A stretch of DNA of 64,000 bases from Shouchella patagoniensis (lineage in GTDB: Bacteria > Bacillota > Bacilli > Bacillales > Bacillaceae_D), in contig NZ_KV917377.1 in NCBI RefSeq assembly GCF_002019705.1, positions 4,031,938-4,095,937 of the forward strand. The letters run 5' to 3'. How positions within the stretch are numbered: the stretch's first letter is position 1; every line of letters starts with the position of its first letter. Positions 31,727 to 42,895 of this stretch are shown piece after piece. The notes beneath the pieces were generated by a model. That model saw nothing but the letters and a program-made list of their open reading frames with translations. It was not told the DNA's origin and did not search any database. Made by a program: the position numbers and the translations under genes.

Positions 31727-32680
31727 ATGAAGTGGCAGGAGGAACGTCAACTTGTACTCGTTGCAAAAATGTATTACGAAGAAGCACTCACACAGAATGA
31801 AATTTCCAAACGTCTCGGCGTGTACCGTACAACGGTGACGCGGATGCTTCAAAAAGCTAGAGACGAAGGGATTGTGCAAATAAAGATTGCTAGTACACAT
31901 CGTGTTCGAGTTAATCTTGAGAATGAGTTATGTAAAAAGTTTGGTTTACTGGAAGCTGTCGTTGTACCGATTGAAAGCCAGACAAGAGACGAACGACTTG
32001 AAGCTTTAGGGCAATCCGGTGCGGAATTGCTTGATCGAATCTTAATAGATGGCGATGTTGTAGGACTTGCCTGGGGGGATACACTTGGGACGATGTCAGA
32101 GGTGATGTCTTCATTTAAAAAAAGAGATGCTACTTTTGTTCCGATCGTTGGCGGTCCAGGGAAGATGCATGTAAAACATCATATTAATACAATCGTTTAC
32201 AATTTTGCGCGTGCGTTTAAGGCAAGGTCGCAATACATTGATGCTGCTGCAATCGTTGAGTCGGCAGACGCGCAAAAAGAAATAAGTAGATCAGCTTACT
32301 TACAAGATGTGTTGAAGTTGTGGCAACAAATGACCGTTGCTGTCATTGGGATAGGTGCGCTTTTTCGGTCGTCGAACCTGGTGTGGAGTGGGTTTATTGG
32401 GGAGGAAGAGAAAGAATTGCTTGAAGAGAAAAAAGTGATTGGTGATATTTTGTCTCGTTTTTACACGATTGATGGAAAAGAAGCACAATCTACTCTTAGT
32501 GAACGGACCATTGCTATTGAGCTTGAACGCTTAAGAAAAAATCGGACAACAATTGCAATTGCTGAATCAAAAGAGAAAGTACCTTCTATTATTGGTGCAC
32601 TTCATGGGGGCTATATCACGCATCTTGTTACGGATGAGGAAACAGCAAACGATATCATGAAGTGGGGGGGGACAAAGTAG
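31727..32680 (+). CDS. SorC/DeoR-type sugar-binding transcriptional regulator of the sorbitol operon
   Basis: 317 residues from the ATG at 31727 (AGAGGTGAT upstream); an ATG at 31700 lies inside the palindromic operator. N-terminal helix-turn-helix YYEEALTQNEISKRLGVYRT with TVTRMLQKA after it, then the SorC sugar-binding domain (about 60-310) with GDVVGLAWGDTLGTMSEVM, PIVGGPGKMHVKHHINTIV and GALHGGYITHLVTDEETA. These regulators bind a phosphorylated sugar. As first gene of a sorbitol PTS operon it probably senses sorbitol 6-phosphate or a downstream metabolite. A run of eight G (32664-32671) lies near its 3' end. Confidence 0.92.
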   Translation: MKWQEERQLVLVAKMYYEEALTQNEISKRLGVYRTTVTRMLQKARDEGIVQIKIASTHRVRVNLENELCKKFGLLEAVVVPIESQTRDERLEALGQSGAELLDRILIDGDVVGLAWGDTLGTMSEVMSSFKKRDATFVPIVGGPGKMHVKHHINTIVYNFARAFKARSQYIDAAAIVESADAQKEISRSAYLQDVLKLWQQMTVAVIGIGALFRSSNLVWSGFIGEEEKELLEEKKVIGDILSRFYTIDGKEAQSTLSERTIAIELERLRKNRTTIAIAESKEKVPSIIGALHGGYITHLVTDEETANDIMKWGGTK

Positions 32681-33129
32681 TGGTGATTCTACTAGCTGTT
32701 CTATGTTTGGCTGTCGGTTTTTTGCTGCAAAGCGTGTTAGGTTTTTGGCAAATCAAGAATTTTAATGAGCGTTATCGTGAGATGCGCGAAGAGGGACAAG
32801 TCGCCATTGGACGATCAAAAGGGATTGTTCGAACTGGTGTGATCTTGATGCTATTAATGGATCGAAAGGATAACATCATTCGCGCAGAGCGTATGCAAGG
32901 AATGACGATCTTTGCAAGATTTAAAGAAGTACCTACTCTTGCAGAACAGCCGCTCTTTTATATGGATCAACCAGTCGAAGCTCGTTTAGATCGGTTTACA
33001 AAGAAAGCGCTTCATGATGCGCGCCATGTGTACCAAGTTGTGAAAGCAGGAGGAGAAATTAAGCCTCCGAAAGCACCACTATCAAAATTGTTTTCAGTAT
33101 TTACAAGAAAGCGTGAGGTGAATGGATAA
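32680..33129 (+). CDS. gutM: Glucitol operon activator GutM
   Basis: 149 residues. The GTG at 32680 shares one base with the SorC stop, with the G8 tract as Shine-Dalgarno; a GTG at 32683 is equally possible. One N-terminal membrane helix (about 3-20) followed by GFWQIKNFNERYREMREEG, VAIGRSKGIVRTGVILML, and MTIFARFKEVPTL, the GutM family pattern. In E. coli GutM activates the glucitol operon; how a membrane-anchored form works in Firmicutes is unclear. Overlaps srlA by one base. Confidence 0.9.
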   Translation: MVILLAVLCLAVGFLLQSVLGFWQIKNFNERYREMREEGQVAIGRSKGIVRTGVILMLLMDRKDNIIRAERMQGMTIFARFKEVPTLAEQPLFYMDQPVEARLDRFTKKALHDARHVYQVVKAGGEIKPPKAPLSKLFSVFTRKREVNG

Positions 33130-33698
33130 TGGATTTTCTAATTCGTGCAGCGGAAGGATTTATTGGTTTATTTGAAGAGGGAGCCCAAACGTTTGTTGGT
33201 CTCGTCGTTGATATCGTTCCGTTATTAATTATGTTGCTAGTCGCAATGAACGCAATCATTCATTTTGTGGGTCAGGAACGGATTGAGAAGTTGGCGATGA
33301 AATCGTCGAAGAACATCTTCACTCGGTATCTTGTTTTACCTGTTATTGGTACATTCTTTTTTCTGAATCCAATGACCTTATCGTTAGGACGTTTTTTACC
33401 TGAACGTTATAAACCTGGTTATTATGCCTCAGCGAGTTATCATTGCCACTCTATGAATGGGTTGTTTCCACATGTAAATCCAGCGGAGTTATTTGTATTT
33501 CTTGGTGTTGCTGCGGGGATTACCCAACTTGGCTATTCAACAGCAGAACTTGCTTTACGTTACTTCCTAGTAGGGGTTGTTATGAATATGATTCGGGGAC
33601 TTGTAACGGACTGGATGGTTTATTATGTCGAGAAGCAACAAAAAGTAAAGTTAAAAACGACAATGGGCGATTCAGTAGGAGGAACAAACAATGGCTGA
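33129..33698 (+). CDS. srlA: PTS glucitol/sorbitol transporter subunit IIC
   Basis: 189 residues; ATG in TAATG with the GutM stop. Polytopic membrane protein; [40 protein letters not shown] and [20 protein letters not shown] are signatures of the sorbitol EIIC. With SrlE it forms the membrane part of the permease that imports and phosphorylates sorbitol. Its last bases overlap srlE by 8, so translation is coupled. Confidence 0.95.
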
Positions 33699-34710
33699 GT
33701 ATAAAGCGGTTCGAGTGAAAAAAGGCTCTGGTGGTTTTGGTGGACCACTCGTCATTAAACCAACAGAAAAAAAGAATAAAATTGTTAATATAACGGGAGG
33801 CCCAATCTCTGATGTCGGTTCAGCACTGGCGGAACTGACAGGAGCAGAACTTATCAATGGCTTCAAAACATCGGTTCCAGAAGACGAAATAGCAGCGGTC
33901 ATTATTGATTGTGGAGGAACATTAAGAGCGGGGTTATATCCGAAGAAGAGAATTCCGACAATCAATATTATGGCTACTGGTCAAAGTGGGCCAATGGCAA
34001 AGTTTATTATAGAAGATATTTATGTTTCTGGTGTAAAGCCAGCACAGCTAATGATGCTTGATGAGAATGGAGAAGAAGCTGCTACGGCTAATCGGTTGGA
34101 ACAATCTGTTCTAGAAAAAGCAACGGAAGAAGGAAAAAAAAGTTCGTACGATACTAGCAAGAAAATTACAGATCAAAATGATAACCTAATGGCCAAGATT
34201 GGCAAGATGATGGGCGGGGTTGTGAATGTCTTTTATCAAGCGGGACGTGATGCAATTGACACCGTTCTAAAGACAATTCTACCGTTTATGGCGTTTGTCT
34301 CTCTATTGATCGGTTTAATTTTAGCATCTGGTATTGGTGATGTGATTGCCAATATTCTAACACCTCTTGGGGGCACAATATGGGGCTTGCTCATTTTATC
34401 TGCAATTGTTTCTTTTCCGCTCTTATCCCCTTTTCTTGGGCCAGGAGCTGTTATCGCACAAGTCATTGGAACATTAATTGGTGTTGAGATTGGTCGTGGT
34501 AATATACCTCCTCAATTTGCCTTGCCTGCTCTTTTTGCGATTAATGCTCAAGCGGCTGCAGACTTTGTTCCAGTTGGACTTGGCTTAGCTGAAGCAGAAC
34601 CAGAAACGGTTGAAGTAGGTGTGCCAGCCGTTTTATATGGGAGGTTTTTAACCGGTGCACCAACCGTATTTGTAGCGTGGTTAGCGAGTTTCGGTATGTA
34701 TGATTACTAA
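33691..34710 (+). CDS. srlE: PTS glucitol/sorbitol transporter subunit IIBC
   Basis: 339 residues; ATG behind AGTAGGAGG. N-terminal IIB domain (about 1-120) with [17 protein letters not shown] and [18 protein letters not shown], whose Cys is the phosphorylated residue. C-terminal membrane domain (about 180-335) with [20 protein letters not shown] and [18 protein letters not shown]. Transfers phosphate from SrlB to sorbitol during import, producing sorbitol 6-phosphate. Confidence 0.95.
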
Positions 34711-34727
34711 ATTTAGGAGATGTAGAA

Positions 34728-35084
34728 ATGATTTATAAAACGACAGTAACAAAGATGGGGCCGAGCGCTGGAGATTTCTTAGAGGAGAACATGATTATTT
34801 TATTTAAAGATAATGCACCAGAAGAACTTGCCGAATTCTGCGTGCTTCATGAAGAAAACGAGCTTAATGGTGAAGTTGTGAAAGGAGATACGATTACTAT
34901 TGCTGGTAGTTCATTTAAAGTAACCGCTGTTGGTGAAGCTGTCGGAAAAAACTTACGTGCACTTGGCCATATCACCATTAAAGCAGATGGTGCAATGGAG
35001 GCTGAATTGCCAGGGACGTTATCTGTAGAAGCGAATGAATTACCTAAAATCGAAGCAGGCCATACAATTACAATTACGAGATAA
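34728..35084 (+). CDS. srlB: PTS glucitol/sorbitol transporter subunit IIA
   Basis: 118 residues, the usual size of sorbitol IIA. The ATG follows TTTAGGAGATG. FCVLHEENEL carries the likely phospho-His; GDTITIAGSSFKVTAVGEAV and LRALGHITIK are family motifs. A cytoplasmic phosphocarrier that takes phosphate from HPr and passes it to SrlE. Confidence 0.95.
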   Translation: MIYKTTVTKMGPSAGDFLEENMIILFKDNAPEELAEFCVLHEENELNGEVVKGDTITIAGSSFKVTAVGEAVGKNLRALGHITIKADGAMEAELPGTLSVEANELPKIEAGHTITITR

Positions 35085-35103
35085 ATAGAGGAGTGGAGAT
35101 AAC

Positions 35104-35886
35104 ATGAATCAAATAGAGAAAACAGCTGTTGTTGCGGGTGGAGGACAAAATTTAGGTGAGCATATTAGCTTACGTTTAAGCAAAGAAGGGTACAGCGTTG
35201 TCGTAGCTGATCTACAAGAAGAAAAAGCAAAAGCTGTTGCTGCAAAAATTACAGCAGAAACAGGCAATGATACGCTTGGAATTGGGTTTAATACAACAAA
35301 CGAAAATGATGTCGCCAACGTCATGAAGTTGACGGTTGAAACCTTTGGTTCACTTGATTTGCTTGTGTATAACGCAGGTGTGGCTCGGAGCACGAAGATT
35401 GATTCATTTACAAAGGAAGACTGGCAACTTTCCCTGGATGTTAATTTAACAGGATACTTTTTATGCGCACGTGAAGCAAGCAAGTGGATGATGGAACAGA
35501 ATCATGGCAATATCATTCAAATCAATTCGAAGTCAGGAAAAGTAGGTAGTAAACATAACGCAGCTTATTCTGCTTCGAAATTCGGTGGAGTGGGCTTAAC
35601 GCAAAGCTTAGCGCTTGATTTAGCTGAACATAATGTTCGTGTGAACTCGATTATGCCAGGGAACCTCCTATCTTCACCAATGTTTCAAAGCTTAATACCT
35701 TCATATGCAAAAAAGCTAGGCATCTCTGAAAGTGAAGTAGAGCAAGTTTATACAGACAAAGTCCCGTTAAAGCGTGGTTGTACGTATGATGACGTTGCTA
35801 ATGCAGTTGTTTTTTACAGTTCTGAACAAGCATCGTATATGACAGGGCAGTCAATTAATGTGACTGGTGGACAAGTGATGTTTTAA
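35104..35886 (+). CDS. srlD: Sorbitol-6-phosphate 2-dehydrogenase
   Basis: 260 residues, classical short-chain dehydrogenase. Nucleotide-binding motif AGGGQNLGEHISLRL (Gly-rich, atypical AGGG), VVADLQ for the NAD specificity loop, NAG in LVYNAGVARS, catalytic Ser in INSKSGKVG and Tyr/Lys in YSASKFG. The C-terminal VTGGQVMF is typical of SrlD. Oxidises sorbitol 6-phosphate to fructose 6-phosphate with NAD+. Follows srlB by 19 bases, RBS GAGGAGTGGAG. Confidence 0.94.
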   Translation: MNQIEKTAVVAGGGQNLGEHISLRLSKEGYSVVVADLQEEKAKAVAAKITAETGNDTLGIGFNTTNENDVANVMKLTVETFGSLDLLVYNAGVARSTKIDSFTKEDWQLSLDVNLTGYFLCAREASKWMMEQNHGNIIQINSKSGKVGSKHNAAYSASKFGGVGLTQSLALDLAEHNVRVNSIMPGNLLSSPMFQSLIPSYAKKLGISESEVEQVYTDKVPLKRGCTYDDVANAVVFYSSEQASYMTGQSINVTGGQVMF

Positions 35887-35905
35887 TAATAAAGGAGGTT
35901 TTAAA

Positions 35906-36589
35906 ATGTCTTTTACTTTACTTATGGATGGGGCAAATGCGGACGTATTTCGTTCTCTGTCTCAATTTCTGCCATTGGATGGTGTGACAACCAATCCAAG
36001 TATACTAGCAAAAAACACGACAATCTCGGCAGAGGAGCAATTGGTACGAATAAATGAAGTATTGTCTCCAAATCAACCGCTCCATGTACAAGCAATTGCT
36101 GAAACGGTTGATGGAATACGGAAAGAAGCAGAGCAAATTAGAAATGCATTTGAGCGCGAAATATGCATTAAAGTGCCCGTTTCTACAGAAGGCATGAAGG
36201 CTATTAAACATCTTGTACAAGATGGAGTGACAATAACAGCAACTGGCATCTTTACTACACAGCAAGCATTTTTGGCAGCGAAAGCAGGGGCAAGTTATGT
36301 AGCTCCTTATGTGAATCGGATTGATATTCAGCATGGAAACAGTATGGAGGTTATTAGACGCATTCGACAGCTATTTGACACGTATGGAATGCCAGCTCGG
36401 ATTCTTGCTGCTAGCTTTAAAAATGTACGGCAAATTGAAGAAGCCATGCTTGCGGGCGTACATGAAGTGACTGTTGCTCCAGATTTATTAGAGGTGTTGC
36501 TCAATCATCAAGGAACAGACGCTGCGGTGAAACAATTTACGAACGAGTTCAGTAATGCATTTGGTGAAGGGAAAACACTATTTGAATAA
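35906..36589 (+). CDS. fsa: Fructose-6-phosphate aldolase/transaldolase-like protein
   Basis: 227 residues, the short transaldolase/FSA family. RBS AAAGGAGG. N-terminal LLMDGANADVFRSL, DGVTTNPSILAKN, Schiff-base Lys in CIKVPVSTEGMKAI, VTITATGIFTTQQAFLAAKA, YVAPYVNRID, and RILAASFKNVRQI are all conserved. FSA splits fructose 6-phosphate to dihydroxyacetone and glyceraldehyde 3-phosphate; short transaldolases transfer dihydroxyacetone. Both make sense after SrlD, and I cannot decide between them. Last gene of the operon. Confidence 0.88.
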   Translation: MSFTLLMDGANADVFRSLSQFLPLDGVTTNPSILAKNTTISAEEQLVRINEVLSPNQPLHVQAIAETVDGIRKEAEQIRNAFEREICIKVPVSTEGMKAIKHLVQDGVTITATGIFTTQQAFLAAKAGASYVAPYVNRIDIQHGNSMEVIRRIRQLFDTYGMPARILAASFKNVRQIEEAMLAGVHEVTVAPDLLEVLLNHQGTDAAVKQFTNEFSNAFGEGKTLFE

Positions 36590-36595
36590 TGAGCG

Positions 36596-36626
36596 AGACG
36601 TCAACTAAATAAGGTTGACGTCTTTT
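36596..36626 (+). terminator. Terminator of the sorbitol operon
   Basis: Perfect AGACGTCAAC / GTTGACGTCT stem, 8-base loop, TTTT. Confidence 0.85.
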
Positions 36627-36675
36627 GTTAATACTACGAGACAGACAAGCAAGCGTGCATGATTATTAATAGGCA

Positions 36676-36684
36676 TGTTATACT
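36676..36684 (+). promoter_or_regulatory. Extended -10 promoter of the GAF-STAS gene
   Basis: TGTTATACT: TG extension plus TATACT, no good -35. Transcription from here would exclude a translation start at 36659 and supports the TTG at 36722. Confidence 0.5.
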
Positions 36685-36721
36685 GAGCCTACTTTATAAA
36701 GAAACGGAAAGGATGTTCAAT

Positions 36722-37546
36722 TTGACGAACCATCAAGCACTTATAGCTGTATCGTATAAGTTCTTTCAAATGATTAGTGATGAGTTAAATGTGAATACAG
36801 CTTATGTCACAAGGCGGGATCCAAATGCAATGATGGTTCTTAGCTCATTCAACAAGGATGAAATGATTATTCCGGAAGGATATGCTGTTGATTACGGGGA
36901 GACGTATTGCCGCCTTATTATTCAAAATGATGAAGATGTGATGCACACAAACAATTTGGCGACTTTTAACCTAACACGAGAGCTAGAAGTGACGGAACAA
37001 TTAAGCGTCAAAGGATTTTTAGGAGTAACATTAAGAGACTTTAACGGGGATGTTTTTGGTACGTTATGTGTGATGGACAAGGAGGAAAAACAATTTACCG
37101 AGGAAAACATTGCTTTCTTAAAAAACATCGCAGACATTCTTTCTTACTTAATCGATTTAGATGAAACAACTCGAAATCTTGATTTATTAAGTGTACCAAT
37201 TATTCCAATAAAAGCGGGTGTGGCGATTTTATCGTTACAAGGAAATATAAACGCAACAAGAAGCACAAAAATACTCGAAGAAACATTGGATTATGCAGCA
37301 GTAAATAAAGTGCGCTACTTTATTGTTGATTTATCGCAGCTCTTGTTATTAGAACAACGTTTTCCAGCTGTCTTAAAGAATATCTTTATGTCATTAAAGA
37401 TTATGGGTGTTCGTGTATTTGTGACCGGTTTAACTGCAGAGATCGTTCTGAAAGGCGCGGCTAGAGATGAGCTTATTGATCTTGATATCGCTTTTGTGAA
37501 AAACATTGAAGAAGCATTAAACGAGGTAGGATACACGCTTAATTAA
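36722..37546 (+). CDS. GAF-like domain + STAS domain protein (RsbR-like, divergent)
   Basis: About 274 residues from a TTG at 36722, chosen because AAAGGATG lies 6 bases upstream; an ATG at 36713 sits directly on that site. N-terminal GAF-like sensor domain (about 5-145: NVNTAYVTRRDPNAMMVLSS, GETYCRLI, FLGVTLRDFNGDVFGTLCVM) and a C-terminal STAS domain (about 160-272). The architecture is that of RsbR paralogues and related stressosome sensors. Unlike the neighbour at 38616, the two threonine positions used by RsbT kinase are Ala178 (with Thr179 next to it) and Gln212, so phosphorylation control is probably altered. Flanked by terminators. Confidence 0.75.
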   Translation: MTNHQALIAVSYKFFQMISDELNVNTAYVTRRDPNAMMVLSSFNKDEMIIPEGYAVDYGETYCRLIIQNDEDVMHTNNLATFNLTRELEVTEQLSVKGFLGVTLRDFNGDVFGTLCVMDKEEKQFTEENIAFLKNIADILSYLIDLDETTRNLDLLSVPIIPIKAGVAILSLQGNINATRSTKILEETLDYAAVNKVRYFIVDLSQLLLLEQRFPAVLKNIFMSLKIMGVRVFVTGLTAEIVLKGAARDELIDLDIAFVKNIEEALNEVGYTLN

Positions 37547-37583
37547 ATGAGGTGTGTAATGAATAGGAATAGGCCAGAAAAAA

Positions 37584-37608
37584 AACGAGTGAAAGCTCGT
37601 TTTTTTTT
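37584..37608. terminator. Bidirectional terminator between the STAS gene and the 88-residue gene
   Basis: ACGAG / CTCGT stem embedded between long A and T runs, at the junction of convergent genes. Confidence 0.7.
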
Positions 37609-37873
37609 AATTATAGAATTGTAATTGTTTCGCTAATAGGTAGGCAATCTCTTTGCGGTTAAACATGTTTTTCATGTTTTCATATCCAGGTCGATCTAAT
37701 AGGACTGTGTTTTTTAGAACGTCACATTGTGGCGATGTTTGAGAAATCGATAACATGCCGTCTTGTTCAACTAAGTATGTTTCCGTAGTCGTTTCAATGT
37801 CCAGTTTATAATCAACTAGATGGAGCAATTTTAATATTTTGACGGCTTGGATTAGTTCAGGATCTTGGTTCAT
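37607..37873 (-). CDS. Hypothetical protein, 88 residues
   Basis: Not recognised. ATG at 37873 behind AAAGGAGGATCTT, an excellent ribosome binding site. Soluble and acidic to neutral; MNQDPELIQAVKILKLLHLV at the N-terminus looks helical, then ETTTETYLVEQDGMLSI is beta-like, then a helical C-terminus with NRKEIAYLLAKQL. It probably forms a two-gene unit with the small gene at 38101-37925 on the same strand, under the sigma-B-like promoter at 38202-38227. Confidence 0.7.
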   Translation of the reverse strand: MNQDPELIQAVKILKLLHLVDYKLDIETTTETYLVEQDGMLSISQTSPQCDVLKNTVLLDRPGYENMKNMFNRKEIAYLLAKQLQFYN

Positions 37874-37924
37874 AAGATCCTCCTTTCATACAGGAACAAG
37901 CAGTTTTCAACTGTTAAGCAGGTT

Positions 37925-38101
37925 TTATTTATACGTCATTGCGATTACGTTCCAGTCATGTTGATTTGGAAGTAAATGTGTGTTCAGTTTATTTGCAAAT
38001 GAGTGGGCGGCTATCGACGTGGAGAATTGTTTTTCTCTATGGCTGCTAGAATCCTTTAGGCTAATATATTCCCCGTTTATTTTACGAACAAGTTTATAGA
38101 T
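37925..38101 (-). CDS. Small protein, 58 residues, apparent ATC start
   Basis: The minus strand has AGGAGG (38109-38114), then 7 bases, then ATC at 38101 and 58 sense codons ending in TAA at 37925. No ATG, GTG or TTG is usable in this frame, and the alternative frames stop at once. The product (starting I-Y-K-L-V-R-K-I-N-G-E-Y) is balanced in composition, with HREKQFSTSIAAHSFANKL and NQHDWNVIAMTYK, and looks genuinely coding. Either translation starts at a rare AUC codon or an ATG has mutated to ATC and the gene is silenced. 51 bases separate it from the 88-residue gene. Not recognised; function unknown. Confidence 0.5.
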   Translation of the reverse strand: MYKLVRKINGEYISLKDSSSHREKQFSTSIAAHSFANKLNTHLLPNQHDWNVIAMTYK

Positions 38102-38201
38102 ATCGGGGCCTCCTAAATAATAGATTCAGCTAAGTAAGCTGTCAATTTAGTATGACATTTTTTACTCTTAAAAGACAGCAATTTATACGTAAATAGTCCA
38201 A

Positions 38202-38227
38202 ATTCCCACATTATTAGGATTTTAAAC
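38202..38227 (-). promoter_or_regulatory. Candidate sigma-B promoter
   Basis: Minus strand: GTTTAA (38222-38227), 14-base spacer, GGGAAT (38202-38207), matching the B. subtilis sigma-B consensus GTTTAA-N12..15-GGGWAW at every position. It lies about 100 bases upstream of the small gene at 38101 and between two RsbR-like genes. Predicted only; an AT-rich background makes chance matches to GTTTAA easy. Confidence 0.45.
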
Positions 38228-38316
38228 ATTATTTTTGTTGATGAACGTGTTTATGACTTTTGTTATGAAGGAAAATACTTAGATCGTGTCATAGAAAAGG
38301 CGTGCTTTCTATAATC

Positions 38317-38523
38317 ATGAGTAAATCTAGTATATGGAAAGCAAAGAATCGAATGATTAAGGAAAATGAAAAGAAGCTCTTCTTGTGAGACTTAGAACAG
38401 TTACGGCGTGAAAGGCAGTTGATGCGTTTAAATATGGAAGAAAGGCGCTTTTTCAAGACGCACATTCGGTTACTAGCAAGTGTGATAGAAGAGAGCGATA
38501 ACTTGAAACAACGAATGAGATGA
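38317..38523 (+). pseudogene. Small coiled-coil-like gene broken by an in-frame TGA
   Basis: ATG at 38317 opens 23 codons (MSKSSIWKAKNRMIKENEKK...), then TGA at 38386-38388, then 44 more codons in the same frame (D-L-E-Q-L-R-R-E-R-Q...LKQRMR) to TGA at 38521. Charged heptad-like sequence on both sides of the stop suggests one original helical protein of about 68 residues. The ribosome binding site is weak and TATAAT lies directly before the ATG, so even the start is doubtful. Confidence 0.35.
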
Positions 38524-38547
38524 AGGAATAAAGTTAATGATGGACAA

Positions 38548-38576
38548 TTGATTGGAAAGCTGGTAATTATTATAGA
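38548..38576 (+). promoter_or_regulatory. Putative sigma-A promoter of the RsbR-like gene
   Basis: TTGATT (38548-38553), 17-base spacer, TATAGA (38571-38576); moderate match, 40 bases before the start codon. Confidence 0.4.
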
Positions 38577-38615
38577 GTATAGTCTTGTTATCACAGGAAA
38601 AAAGGAGGGATTAAG

Positions 38616-39440
38616 TTGTCGTCATTGTATGAATTTATGAAAGAGAAAACATGGAATTTAACAGAATCATGGTATGCAAGTTTAGACAAAACAAAAGATG
38701 GCATTTATGGTACAAGCGATCCTGAAAAAATTGAGCTGTTAAAAAAACAAAATTACGAATTTCATTTGTTGTTCTGTGAGATCTTTAATGAGGATAGTGA
38801 GAATTTGGAGGAGAGGTTTGATCAGTGGCTTGATAAAATGGCTGCCGACCAAGGTCATTTAGCAACGCCAATTCCGCAAATTATTGATGAGTTTCTAACT
38901 GTTCAAGAACAATACTTAGATCTTGTTTCTGAATATAGTTATCAAAATCGAGAAACGACATCATTTACGCAAAATCAAGAATGGAACCGAATGGTGTCTA
39001 AGTCATTCCGTAAAATCATTACTGAATTTGGCGAAAGGAATTTGGCCCAAGCACAACACGTGATGCAATCACAACAAGAAATGATTACTGAGCTTAGTTC
39101 GCCAGTTATTCCTCTTAATAAAAACGTTGCGTTACTTCCGCTTATTGGTGAAATCGATACACACCGTGCGAAAGTCATTTTTGAGCAAACACTTGACCAA
39201 TGTGTTTCGATTCAAGTCGAATCCTTATTAATTGATTTATCTGGTGTTCCTGTAGTGGATACGATGGTAGCGAATCAGCTATTCTCTCTTGTAGAGGGGC
39301 TAAAGCTAGTCGGAACAAAAGCTTCACTTTCAGGATTGCGACCTGAAATCGCCCAAACATCCATTCAATTAGGAATTGATTTTAGCTCCGTTAATATTTA
39401 CTCTACCATTTCTCGTGCTCTAGAAAAAATGAACGCTTAG
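38616..39440 (+). CDS. RsbR family stressosome protein (globin-like N-terminus + STAS)
   Basis: 274 residues from a TTG 6 bases after AAAAAGGAGGG. The N-terminal half (about 5-150) is helical and fits the non-haem globin-like RsbR_N domain; the C-terminal STAS domain (about 160-272) reads PVIPLNKNVALLPLIGEI, then DTHRA with Thr182, and DLSGVPVVDTMVAN with Thr216. These are spaced 34 residues apart exactly like Thr171 and Thr205 of B. subtilis RsbRA, the RsbT kinase sites. It is therefore a canonical stressosome shell protein. No rsbS, rsbT or sigB lies in the window, so it would join a stressosome encoded elsewhere. Confidence 0.9.
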   Translation: MSSLYEFMKEKTWNLTESWYASLDKTKDGIYGTSDPEKIELLKKQNYEFHLLFCEIFNEDSENLEERFDQWLDKMAADQGHLATPIPQIIDEFLTVQEQYLDLVSEYSYQNRETTSFTQNQEWNRMVSKSFRKIITEFGERNLAQAQHVMQSQQEMITELSSPVIPLNKNVALLPLIGEIDTHRAKVIFEQTLDQCVSIQVESLLIDLSGVPVVDTMVANQLFSLVEGLKLVGTKASLSGLRPEIAQTSIQLGIDFSSVNIYSTISRALEKMNA

Positions 39441-39460
39441 GTAGTACATAAAAAGTAGAC

Positions 39461-39491
39461 AGGCCCCTCCGATAATAGAGAGGCCTATTTT
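39461..39491. terminator. Terminator between the RsbR-like gene and the convergent 207-residue gene
   Basis: AGGCCCCTC / GAGAGGCCT stem with one mismatch, loop CGATAATA, followed by ATTTT. Confidence 0.7.
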
Positions 39492-39497
39492 CGTATA

Positions 39498-40121
39498 TTA
39501 TATCCTTTGTTCGTTTAGAATTTGTCCCCGTATCTCCCATGATGCTAAGTTAAATCCTGCTTTTACTCCATTGGTGAACCCTTCTTGGTAAGTTTTTGTT
39601 CCTTCTGCAATCTTCTCATCTTGAACAATCTTGTTTTTCTGGATAAGGTCTAACAGCTCATGAACAGAAGTTTCAGTTAATTCATTTGTGTTAGCGATAT
39701 AGATAGATAAGTAGTTTGCCACTTGTTCATAAGCAAATGCCATGCCTTCAAACATTCCTTTCTGGTATTCAGGTGTAAGTTGCTGAAGTTCGTCGATGGC
39801 TTCTTCAGGGATACCATCAAGATAAGGTGCTTCTTTCACTTGATCGTATAAGGATTCAGTACTTTGAGCGATTGAGCTATCCGTTTGACGTCGAAAGTGT
39901 TTTTCTAATTCAATGAATTGATTTCTCATTAGTCGGTCTCCTTTTTTATAATCAAATTCTCGTACCATTCGATTAACGACATAGCGATATGCAGTGTTCA
40001 TGCCTTGATAGATTTTGTCGCCGCTTTTGCTTTGCGTCCGTGAAGTAATCTCCAACTGAATAAAATCTTCAATACAATCTTCAATCTTAGCGCCACGGAA
40101 CATGCGCTTACGGTAGTCCAA
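39498..40121 (-). CDS. Hypothetical protein, 207 residues
   Basis: Not recognised. TTG start at 40121 behind GGAGGTGAT with 5 bases of spacing. Predominantly helical and acidic, no signal or membrane helix. MFRGAKIEDCIEDFIQLEIT, YQGMNTAYRYVVNRMVREF and the C-terminal EGTKTYQEGFTNGVKAGFNL suggest repeated helices with a Y-Q-x-G-x-x-x-G-x-x-x-A pattern seen twice (YQKGMFEGMAFAYEQV and YQEGFTNGVKAGFNLA), so an internal duplication is likely. A perfect 18-base palindrome lies upstream at 40160. Confidence 0.75.
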   Translation of the reverse strand: MDYRKRMFRGAKIEDCIEDFIQLEITSRTQSKSGDKIYQGMNTAYRYVVNRMVREFDYKKGDRLMRNQFIELEKHFRRQTDSSIAQSTESLYDQVKEAPYLDGIPEEAIDELQQLTPEYQKGMFEGMAFAYEQVANYLSIYIANTNELTETSVHELLDLIQKNKIVQDEKIAEGTKTYQEGFTNGVKAGFNLASWEIRGQILNEQRI

Positions 40122-40159
40122 TTGTTATCACCTCCAAGTTCTTTTTAGCTTACTTTAAA

Positions 40160-40177
40160 TGTTTACATTTGTAAACA
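40160..40177. promoter_or_regulatory. Perfect 18-base palindrome, candidate operator
   Basis: TGTTTACATTTGTAAACA, two 8-base arms around TT, 39 bases upstream of the 207-residue gene start and 146 bases before the acyl-CoA ligase promoter. Shape typical of a TetR or GntR dimer site. No such regulator gene lies in the window. Confidence 0.5.
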
Positions 40178-40322
40178 AAAAAGTGATTATTCTTAAATTG
40201 TTGAATTCAAATGAAAATAGCGAGTTTTGCCTAATTGTATATTTGCAATAAGGGTAACGAAATACAACAACAAGTATGTTGAATGTGTGAAAATAAAAAT
40301 GTTATCCGCAAAGAACTACTGG

Positions 40323-40351
40323 TTGACAATGGAAAGCGAATCTCCTACCAT
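40323..40351 (+). promoter_or_regulatory. Sigma-A promoter of the acyl-CoA ligase operon
   Basis: TTGACA (perfect), 17-base spacer, TACCAT; 30 bases before the GTG start. Confidence 0.65.
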
Positions 40352-40380
40352 TCATTAAAAAGAGTTTAGGAGATGGGACT

Positions 40381-41784
40381 GTGCAAATTGGTGAAATGAT
40401 AAGAGCGCATGCAGACAAGCAACCCGGCAAAAGTGCAATTGTGTATCGAGGAAAAAAGCGGTCATACGCTACAATCCAGAAAGATATCGATACGTACCGG
40501 CATTTATTTGTTGCAAAGGCCCAACAAACTGGACTTGTTCCTCCTCTTCGTATAGCGATTGACTTAACAGAAACGGATGACCAATTGCTTGCATTTTTAG
40601 CGGTCGCAAGTCTTGGCTGGATTGGAGTACCCAGTAATGACGCATGGTCAAACCGAGAGCAAGATGCGGCATTCGCTTTGTCAAAAGTAGATGTTCTTTT
40701 AACAGATAAGGATCAAACTGCACGTTTACCTATCTGGAGAATAAAGGGAGTAAAAGCGAATAGAGAAGACGTTGTGTTGCCAATAGCAACTAAAACCGAT
40801 TCATTTTATATTGGGTTCACGTCTGGGAGTACGGGAAATCCGAAAGCGTATATGAGGACCCATCGATCATGGTCGGCAAGTTTTGATGCGGCAAAGGATG
40901 TGTTTGGTCTTTGTTCAGGAGACCGAGTTAGTGTGCCAGGTTCTTTGTTTCATTCACTGTTTTTATTTGCAGCTGTACTTACGTTACATATCGGAGCAAC
41001 CGTTTATTTGGAGTCATCGTTTGCTCCTCATCAAGTCATTCAAACAGTAAAAAATGAGGATATTAACATTATTTATGCAGTCCCCACGATGACACAAGCA
41101 CTAATTGGAGTTGCAGAAAACCCAATTGAAAATGTGACGGCTGTCATTGTGTCTGGCGCAAAATGGAGTAAACGACAACGGGAACGAACAAAAGGGTCTT
41201 TTCCAAATGCGGAGTTAATTGAATTTTATGGTGCCTCTGAGCTAAGTTTTGTCTCGTATTTAAATCATAGTAAAACTGAACAGAAGGAAACAGCCGTTGG
41301 TACACTTTTTCCAGGTGTGGAAATGAAAGTGGATCAAGAACAACGATTATATGTTCATAGTCCATACTTGTTTGTTGGTTATGTGGGTGAATTAGCTGCG
41401 GTAGGTTGGCAGACCGTTGGTGACATCGGTTATCTAGATGATCATAACGTTGTGCATGTAAAAGGGCGTACAGGCAATATGCTTATTATAGGTGGTCATA
41501 ATGTGTACCCAGAAGAGGTCGAGCGTCTAGCGAAAACATTGCCGTTTGTTGACGAAGCTATTGCAGTTGGAATCAGCCATGATTACTGGGGCAAGCAAAT
41601 GGAATTATATATAAAAGGTGGCGGAAATGTACCAAATGATGCGAAACGGCAAGTTCGTGTCTTATTAAACAATGAGCTTCCACCAGTCAAACGTCCGAGA
41701 AGAATTCATTTTGTGGATGCTTACCCTGTTTTAGCAAGCGGCAAGATTGATCGTCAAGCATTAGTAGGTCAATCAAATGAATGA
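40381..41784 (+). CDS. yhfT: Acyl-CoA ligase, AMP-binding (YhfT-like)
   Basis: 467 residues, shorter than most long-chain ligases; GTG start behind AGGAGATG. Motifs of the adenylate-forming family: P-loop IGFTSGSTGNPKAYMRTHRS, A5-type ELIEFYGASELSF, GDIGYLD with K-G-R-T-G, and the C-terminal catalytic Lys in LASGKIDRQAL. It activates a carboxylic acid to acyl-AMP and then acyl-CoA. Its stop overlaps the thiolase start by 8 bases; B. subtilis has the same yhfS-yhfT pairing, which is my basis for the names. Substrate unknown. Confidence 0.88.
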   Translation: MQIGEMIRAHADKQPGKSAIVYRGKKRSYATIQKDIDTYRHLFVAKAQQTGLVPPLRIAIDLTETDDQLLAFLAVASLGWIGVPSNDAWSNREQDAAFALSKVDVLLTDKDQTARLPIWRIKGVKANREDVVLPIATKTDSFYIGFTSGSTGNPKAYMRTHRSWSASFDAAKDVFGLCSGDRVSVPGSLFHSLFLFAAVLTLHIGATVYLESSFAPHQVIQTVKNEDINIIYAVPTMTQALIGVAENPIENVTAVIVSGAKWSKRQRERTKGSFPNAELIEFYGASELSFVSYLNHSKTEQKETAVGTLFPGVEMKVDQEQRLYVHSPYLFVGYVGELAAVGWQTVGDIGYLDDHNVVHVKGRTGNMLIIGGHNVYPEEVERLAKTLPFVDEAIAVGISHDYWGKQMELYIKGGGNVPNDAKRQVRVLLNNELPPVKRPRRIHFVDAYPVLASGKIDRQALVGQSNE

Positions 41785-42895
41785 GGTTTTTATTGTAAGA
41801 GCGAAGCGCACAGTCATTGGTCAGAAACGAGGACTGCTTGCGAATAACCGTCCGGAAAAGCTAGCTGCTATGGTCTTTCACCATTTAACAGATGGTATTC
41901 CCTTTGAACAAATTGATGGGGTCATTCTTGGTAACGCTGTTGGTGAAGGCGGAAATATAGCAAGACTCTCCTTGTTAGAGGCCGGCTTGTCCATGAGCAT
42001 TCCTGGTACAACAATTGATGGCCAATGTGGTTCGGGACTCGATGCCATTATCACAGCTGCTAGACAGATTCAGGTTGGTGCTGGAGAAGTATATATTGCC
42101 GGTGGAACTGAAAGTACAAGTTTAGAACCAGAGCGTATTCCAACCAATGGATTAGCCCCTTTAACTCGAGCCCGTTTTTCACCAGAAACAATCGGGGACC
42201 CAGATATGGCAGTGGCGGCTGAGAATGTTGCCACACTTTATGGGATTTCACGAGAGCAACAAGATGCTTACGCGGCAAGAAGTTATGAACGAGCATATAT
42301 AGCGGAACAAGAGGGACGGTTTCGTCAGGAGAAAATTTATGAGCATCGTTATCTTGCTGACGAAGGAATTAGGAAAGTGAGTGAGCGATTGCTAAAGCGA
42401 ATGCCTTCTATTAGCAACCAAGCGGGGAGTGTAACGGCGATTAATTCATGTGCGAAAAGTGACGGTGCCGCAGCGGTTTTACTGATGTCAAAAGAGGCAT
42501 GTGAACGGCTTGGTTTTGATCCGATCCTTACATTTATTGATGGGGCAAGTGCTGGCTGTGATCCAAATCTTGCGAGTTTTAGTCCTGTGCCTGCCATAAG
42601 AAAGTTACTTGATCGCCAGAAACTTAGATTGGATCAAGTTGATCTAGTTGAATGGAATGAAGCGTATGCCGCACAAATGGTTGCGTGTAGTCAGGAATTG
42701 AATTTAGATGCTAGCAAACTAAATAGAAGTGGAGGCGCATTAACGCTTGGTCATCCATACGGTGCATCAGGTGCAATTAACGTAGTCCGACTCGTGCATG
42801 AGATGTCGAGTAGTGGAGCGAAGATTGGGTTAAGTGCGGTTGGGGCGGCAGGTGGAAACGGCACGGCGGCGTTGTTTTATAAAAGCGATGTTTGA
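41777..42895 (+). CDS. yhfS: Thiolase family protein lacking the second catalytic cysteine (YhfS-like)
   Basis: 372 residues. Thiolase fold with nucleophile Cys84 in DGQCGSGLDA, Asn in EWNEAYAAQM, and His326 in GHPYGASG. The final motif, normally C-I-G-G-G-x-G with an acid/base Cys 30 residues after the His, reads G-A-A-G-G-N-G here with Gly356 at the Cys position. Known thiolases use both cysteines to form or break acetoacetyl-type C-C bonds, so activity may be changed to another acyl transfer or hydrolysis. Translationally coupled to the acyl-CoA ligase. Confidence 0.88.
   Translation: MNEVFIVRAKRTVIGQKRGLLANNRPEKLAAMVFHHLTDGIPFEQIDGVILGNAVGEGGNIARLSLLEAGLSMSIPGTTIDGQCGSGLDAIITAARQIQVGAGEVYIAGGTESTSLEPERIPTNGLAPLTRARFSPETIGDPDMAVAAENVATLYGISREQQDAYAARSYERAYIAEQEGRFRQEKIYEHRYLADEGIRKVSERLLKRMPSISNQAGSVTAINSCAKSDGAAAVLLMSKEACERLGFDPILTFIDGASAGCDPNLASFSPVPAIRKLLDRQKLRLDQVDLVEWNEAYAAQMVACSQELNLDASKLNRSGGALTLGHPYGASGAINVVRLVHEMSSSGAKIGLSAVGAAGGNGTAALFYKSDV

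Follow-up and report, generated by a model that had tools for sequence, protein, structure and literature searches.

A GAF-STAS protein of Shouchella patagoniensis as the cysteine form of a stressosome-type sensor family with putative selenocysteine-containing relatives

A 64,000-nucleotide stretch of the Shouchella patagoniensis genome (contig NZ_KV917377.1 of assembly GCF_002019705.1, positions 4,031,938 to 4,095,937 of the forward strand; hereafter the window) harbors two genes coding for stressosome-type STAS proteins. The first (36722..37546, + strand; TTG start, with alternative in-frame ATG codons at 36713 and 36659) codes for P0001, a 274-residue sensor of the RsbR/YtvA type that lacks both phospho-threonines. 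Its residues ~1-150 (36722..37171, + strand) form a GAF sensor domain, recognized by Pfam as GAF (4e-8) and GAF_2 and by Foldseek matches to GAF structures from a medium-confidence model, and its residues ~161-266 (37202..37519, + strand) form a STAS domain (Pfam, 1.6e-5), whose 27 bits are the lowest score above the Pfam cut-off in the genome. The best PDB sequence match is YtvA (2mwg), RsbR being matched as well, and in both sequence and fold searches the STAS half falls among YtvA, RsbR and RsbS. P0001 has the broad layout of a sensor-STAS protein, with a sensor domain, a linker helix and an RsbR/YtvA-like STAS domain; it contains no LOV domain, and its match to the NCBIfam YtvA_fam model (NF052652) is partial and below the cut-off (70 bits vs 250). 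The second gene (38616..39440, + strand; TTG start after GGAGGG) codes for P0002, a 274-residue RsbR paralogue (STAS, 1.6e-16), residues 7-271 of which match the RsbR of L. innocua (7b0u) at 1e-31. With a C-terminal STAS domain, threonines at both RsbT sites and a full-length RsbR match, P0002 is a regular RsbR co-antagonist.

The phosphosite assignments of an initial annotation, made from the sequence of the window, agree with our alignment and with Pfam: P0002 carries Thr182 and Thr216 in a 34-residue spacing, and P0001 combines a GAF sensor with Ala178 (37253..37255, + strand; the position of RsbRA Thr171), the adjacent Thr179, and Gln212 (37355..37357, + strand; the position of RsbRA Thr205), next to Glu211 where RsbR has Asp. 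P0001 departs from the RsbR co-antagonists in having no threonine at the T171 and T205 positions and a GAF domain in place of the globin-like N-terminal domain. The loss of both threonines is a trait of the whole GAF-STAS family. Among 107 distinct full-length GAF-STAS sequences, the window protein included, threonine occurs at site 1 in two, at site 2 in four and at both sites in none; neither Ser nor Thr is found at either site in 86, and acidic residues are found at site 1 in 76 sequences and at site 2 in 42. A threonine in a shifted register, which the initial annotation had named as evidence against its reading, was looked for across the same sequences and ruled out, with no nearby column restoring it: Ser or Thr occupies the Thr179 column in 16/107 and any other column up to two residues from either phosphosite in at most 20/107. 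Signalling without phosphorelay, already envisaged there, fits a protein that lacks both RsbT targets in any register, and P0001 most likely signals without phosphorylation at these sites. A sensor subunit of this kind is not new, because YtvA of B. subtilis has Glu168/Glu202 and Lmo0799 of Listeria His163/Glu197 at the RsbT sites (passages of PMC3019169), and stressosomes of a minimal strain still signal without phosphorylation of RsbRA T171 and RsbS S59 (passages of PMC3944199).

The sensor domain has features that are absent from the initial annotation, namely two conserved cysteines, Cys63 and Cys116, and an apparent selenocysteine (Sec) counterpart of the former in relatives. Codon 63, which is TGC in the window gene (36908..36910, + strand), is TGC in 45 of the 107 homologues, TGT in 40 and an in-frame TGA in 22, so that the column holds either Cys (85) or TGA without any other codon. 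The proportion 22/107 is not a frequency, because 29 full-length rows without inner stops, whose codon 63 was unread, lie outside the 107, which include every full-length TGA row; incomplete loci, such as the frameshifted draft orthologue of Bacillus sp. JCM 19041, were also left out. Twenty-one of the full-length TGA genes come from a profile search of 299 genomes of the order and one from a further genome (G022). In all 22, the TGA falls exactly in the column of P0001 Cys63, and the gene ends in TAA or TAG in 21 and in TGA in one. Cys116 (TGT, 37067..37069, + strand; GTLC motif) is Cys in 106/107 homologues and in 22/22 TGA forms. Since it is near-invariant and is the only other cysteine of P0001, a redox pair of Cys63 (or Sec63) with Cys116 is suggested.

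The TGA genes share a hairpin resembling a selenocysteine insertion sequence (SECIS), placed at a fixed distance of 15 nt past the TGA and made of a 6-nt by 6-nt stem and a 5-nt loop (CGTGA in 14, CGGGA in 7 and CGGGT in one). At least five of the six stem pairs form in one register in 22/22 TGA genes (all six in 9/22), and in only 1/45 TGC and 1/40 TGT genes, the window gene forming 3/6. In the bacterial SECIS model, as given in part of PMC13188914, a stem of 4-16 bp with a minimum free energy of at most -7.5 carries a loop of 3-9 nt with a G in its first two positions, 16-37 nt from the UGA. Loop size, loop G and spacing (21 nt from UGA to loop) agree with this model in all 22 genes. The stem also covaries: in a set of 34 of the 36 TGA sequences (32 distinct), which leaves out two loci (L166 and L171) on account of a hairpin 3 nt closer to the TGA, the score was 0.445 vs 0.216 in shuffled alignments, with 0/500 shuffles as high and slid versions of the stem scoring 0.057-0.229.

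The gene selB of the Sec machinery is present in 133/299 genomes, comprising 21/21 TGA genomes vs 112/278 others (kinship ignored), and within the GAF-STAS genomes it is found in 21/21 TGA carriers vs 23/79 Cys-only ones. In 40 chosen genomes, selA and an over-cut-off selenocysteine tRNA co-occur in the same 30, namely all 29 whose TGA-type GAF gene was verified (selA being interrupted in G032) and one more, G235. Neither was found in the ten Cys-only genomes of this set, which is not an independent control because nine of them had been picked as known to lack selB. The ratio of nonsynonymous to synonymous substitution rates (dN/dS), computed for eight overlapping pairs of TGA genes, is 0.05-0.16 after the TGA, a similarly low level to that found before it (0-0.24). 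The fixed place of the TGA, the hairpin, the Sec machinery and the constraint past the TGA rule out a plain stop codon or pseudogene. Reading of TGA as Trp in a recoded genome is disfavoured as well, the column being otherwise Cys and 21/22 genes ending in TAA or TAG with a single inner TGA. Because of the Cys/TGA column, the covarying hairpin, the presence of selB and the constraint past the TGA, many GAF-STAS relatives look like selenoproteins; ordinary annotation would probably end such genes early, at the TGA. The window gene itself is no selenoprotein gene: its codon is TGC, no selB, selA or over-cut-off selenocysteine tRNA match is present in the host genome, and P0001 is the Cys form. 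A partial GAF-STAS gene of G235, considered as a further TGA carrier, was rejected and excluded from the counts, as the start of its GAF domain is missing and its TGA lies outside the Cys63 position. This gene (L121) is a remnant reduced to the STAS half, in a genome that has selA, selB and the tRNA.

The TGA-bearing module is not restricted to STAS proteins. Fourteen other GAF proteins with one TGA (L043, L044, L045, L046 and L165-L174) carry it in the same column (14/14). The hairpin follows, with its register unchanged in 12 and, as judged by eye, 3 nt closer in L166 and L171. Histidine kinases are among these proteins, as are GGDEF and GGDEF-EAL proteins and a SpoIIE-type (PP2C-type) phosphatase, the domain identity of L043, L044 and L046 resting on translations only. 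These TGA-bearing GAF kinases, GGDEF(-EAL) proteins and phosphatase are likely undescribed selenoprotein sensors. TGA genomes among the 299 belong to five families. A tree of the 107 GAF-STAS sequences, built after masking of the Sec and SECIS columns, splits into an all-Cys clade of 53 rows, to which the window protein belongs, and a mixed clade of 32 Cys and 22 Sec rows. A single origin of the Sec state is rejected, as the tree requires at least three Cys/Sec changes, two of them forced by well-supported branches. A tree of the STAS domain only, with RsbR and YtvA included, is poorly resolved; it places GAF-STAS and LOV/PAS proteins apart from RsbR with a support of 91 and one exception (L041).

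The initial annotation correctly reported no rsbS, rsbT or sigB in the window, an absence that is uninformative, given that the host genome (G000, 4.65 Mb) harbors a complete rsbRA-rsbS-rsbT-rsbU-rsbV-rsbW-sigB operon at C1:~1.767-1.772 Mb, with gene names assigned from matches, translations and operon order. Beyond the operon, it contains four intact RsbR paralogues, P0002 among them, one frameshift-split RsbR and two LOV-STAS proteins of the YtvA type. The five intact RsbRs are all Thr/Thr, and the LOV-STAS proteins (L011 and L012) have Lys/Ala and His/Asp at the phosphosites. The split RsbR-like gene (L019:3410-4118; G000:C1:~3485.4-3486.1 kb) consists of two overlapping frames within the STAS domain, reflecting a frameshift or a sequencing error, and a decayed second GAF-STAS copy (L059; G000:C1:3242873-3243312) retains residues 2-78 and 212-273 in separate short frames with the middle unmatched. 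Across the order, the GAF-STAS family profile matches 118/299 genomes at E<=1e-35, with full-length matches in 100/299 genomes from 16 families; at most eight candidates were scored per genome, which makes absences soft. All 100 genomes with a full-length GAF-STAS protein have rsbS, vs 131/199 others (Fisher p ~1e-14; kinship ignored). As controls, selB and rsbS (p=0.27) and GAF-STAS and selB (p=1.0) are unassociated in the 299 genomes, kinship again being ignored. In the first 60 relatives, the 22 GAF-STAS genomes all contain both rsbS and rsbT.

From these data, we regard it as fairly probable that P0001 is the Cys form of a family of GAF-STAS stressosome sensors that would detect stress by thiol or selenol redox chemistry, with no phosphorelay on the sensor itself. 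The exchange of Cys and Sec at residue 63 suggests redox stress sensing through that atom. Its incorporation into the stressosome, the redox chemistry, a Cys63-Cys116 bond and the nature of its signal are predicted from sequence. P0001 would use its STAS domain to enter the RsbR/RsbS core as a minor subunit, like YtvA, and its GAF domain would read the signal with Cys63 (Sec in many relatives) and Cys116 acting as a thiol/selenol redox pair. Peroxide, a disulfide or another reactive species could oxidize or reduce the pair, or an adduct could form at residue 63; the state of this residue would alter the GAF domain, from which the linker helix, itself shifted, would carry the change to the STAS layer. 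RsbT would then be released from RsbR/RsbS, P0001 itself remaining unphosphorylated. It also seems rather more probable than not that the GAF domain with an exchangeable Cys/Sec redox switch (residue 63 with Cys116) serves as a general input device in the order, feeding stressosomes through STAS domains without phosphorylatable RsbT sites, as well as histidine kinases, diguanylate cyclases and PP2C phosphatases.

Several observations weigh against this interpretation. The window protein lies in the clade where Cys is found in 53/53 rows, Sec forms occurring only in the sister clade, and the co-occurrence statistics ignore phylogeny. One pair is mismatched in 13/22 TGA hairpins; in 45-nt windows, 19/22 have a minimum free energy of at most -7.5, the other three lying at -6.4 to -7.1; and two of five covariation measures fall within the shuffles (double-change pairs 322/500, pair types 125/500). 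The AlphaFold model of P0001, built from four rows, is of medium quality (predicted local distance difference test, pLDDT, 68.7), and the Cys63 loop has a pLDDT below 50, too weak to judge a contact between Cys63 and Cys116. Finally, the glycine of the DLSG motif is kept in 0/12 rows of the sub-clade of P0001 vs 88/95 elsewhere. This motif is reported to be important in YtvA, and because its glycine is lost, the output of the sub-clade may differ from that of YtvA.

The redox reading has to be weighed against an alternative in which the GAF domain responds to a small ligand, or uses Cys63 or Sec63 to bind a cofactor or metal, without any redox change, within a protein that would still be a stressosome subunit. 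GAF domains often bind small ligands, and chromophore-binding GAFs are among the top Foldseek matches of P0001; in some selenoproteins, Sec is possibly a metal ligand (according to part of PMC13188914). The strict exchange of Cys and TGA, together with a second near-invariant Cys, is however a pattern seen above all at redox or catalytic sites, and we consider ligand or metal binding unlikely. In another alternative, the domain would be an enzyme-like redox center related to free methionine-R-sulfoxide reductases, which have a GAF fold with a functional Cys, and would sense its own substrate. Sec favours catalysis and one such reductase (4mmn) is among the Foldseek matches, at rank 44, but it is outranked by many non-enzymatic GAFs, and the search started from a medium-quality model that renders the Cys63 loop poorly, which makes this origin of the signal quite improbable. 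Beyond its fold, seen by Foldseek only, 4mmn differs from P0001 in that the latter is fused to a STAS domain.

Two further explanations concern the STAS half. The initial annotation had suggested that the protein, its phosphosites being lost, may be a blocked or constitutive subunit; as such it would be a locked or degenerate copy of RsbR. Both threonines of P0001 are indeed replaced by non-acidic residues, the DLSG glycine is lost and the genome contains a second GAF-STAS copy that has decayed. Against this, the loss is family-wide and common to YtvA, a functional sensor, and P0001 evolves under purifying selection (dN/dS 0.086 over 212 codons with the JCM 19041 orthologue). This selection, the conserved GAF core and both cysteines, and a site pattern common to the family all point to an active sensor, and we give a locked copy little credence. 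Departure of the protein from the stressosome to regulate another partner would agree with its STAS score, the weakest above the cut-off in the genome; the presence of rsbS in every genome with a full-length GAF-STAS protein speaks against it and renders it very improbable.

Compared with known systems, the predicted redox sensor is closest to YtvA, the blue-light receptor (LOV-STAS) in the stressosome of B. subtilis, with which P0001 shares a sensor domain joined to STAS and the replacement of both phospho-threonines. It differs by a GAF instead of a LOV domain, by Ala and Gln at these sites, and by a conserved sensor Cys that is TGA, presumably Sec, in relatives. P0001 shares the C-terminal STAS domain with RsbRA-RsbRD, and RsbS and RsbT would be its expected partners, as for these proteins; it lacks both their N-terminal domain and the threonines, whereas P0002 is a standard member. 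The relatives resemble bacterial selenoproteins in their in-frame TGA, SECIS-like hairpin, Sec machinery and Cys homologues, with the difference that the proteins bearing Sec would here be signal-transduction sensors, and that the window protein is the Cys form. An inventory of 2026 lists 119 prokaryotic selenoprotein families (PMC13188914, Table 1). Neither GAF, STAS, sensor, signal transduction nor histidine kinase occurs as a term in its text, four GAF/STAS Pfam identifiers are likewise absent, and the sole entry named as regulatory in the first of three parts of the table is an FmdB-family protein. For Bacillales, a survey of 2006 arrived at three families and three selenoproteins (excerpt of PMC1794560). 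No GAF selenoprotein sensor was found in the literature as judged from listings and the beginnings of abstracts, preprints and most subscription papers being outside this scope, within which Sec-GAF sensors look undescribed. In B. subtilis, the signals of stressosome RsbR proteins are unidentified except for light and YtvA, and a Vibrio stressosome is reported to sense oxygen (excerpts of PMC9237108). As Cys and, presumably, Sec exchange naturally, one atom and one chemistry are indicated for the GAF-STAS family, and the signal is therefore testable. If this proves true, the Sec versions would act as signal-transduction sensors based on selenocysteine, and the use of this amino acid would extend to signal input.

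The two genes of the window had initially been presented as a pair. They are separated by ~1.07 kb that includes an 88-aa open reading frame on the opposite strand (37607..37873, - strand), which is outside the system and shows 92% identity in JCM 19041. An RsbR neighbour is kept in only 1/15 GAF-STAS loci compared (flanks of ~3-5 kb each), that of Bacillus sp. JCM 19041, which leaves a functional pair unsupported; as the arrangement is kept nowhere else among these loci, both genes are neighbours and not a unit. The GAF-STAS gene of JCM 19041 (L051 ~2520) has a one-base deletion in a T run, and because coding constraint continues in the frame beyond it (dN/dS 0.071), the deletion is probably an error of the draft sequence. 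In two other genomes, a PAS-STAS gene (L160:~1022) and an RsbR-like gene (L104:~883) adjoin GAF-STAS genes, with site 1 altered to Asp and Glu, respectively. An Rfam search of positions 32000-42000 of the window gave no match. Directly upstream of the GAF-STAS gene, at 32662-36589, lies an apparent glucitol/sorbitol phosphotransferase system cluster, and the same stretch contains a short-chain dehydrogenase gene and a transaldolase-like gene, all identified from translations.

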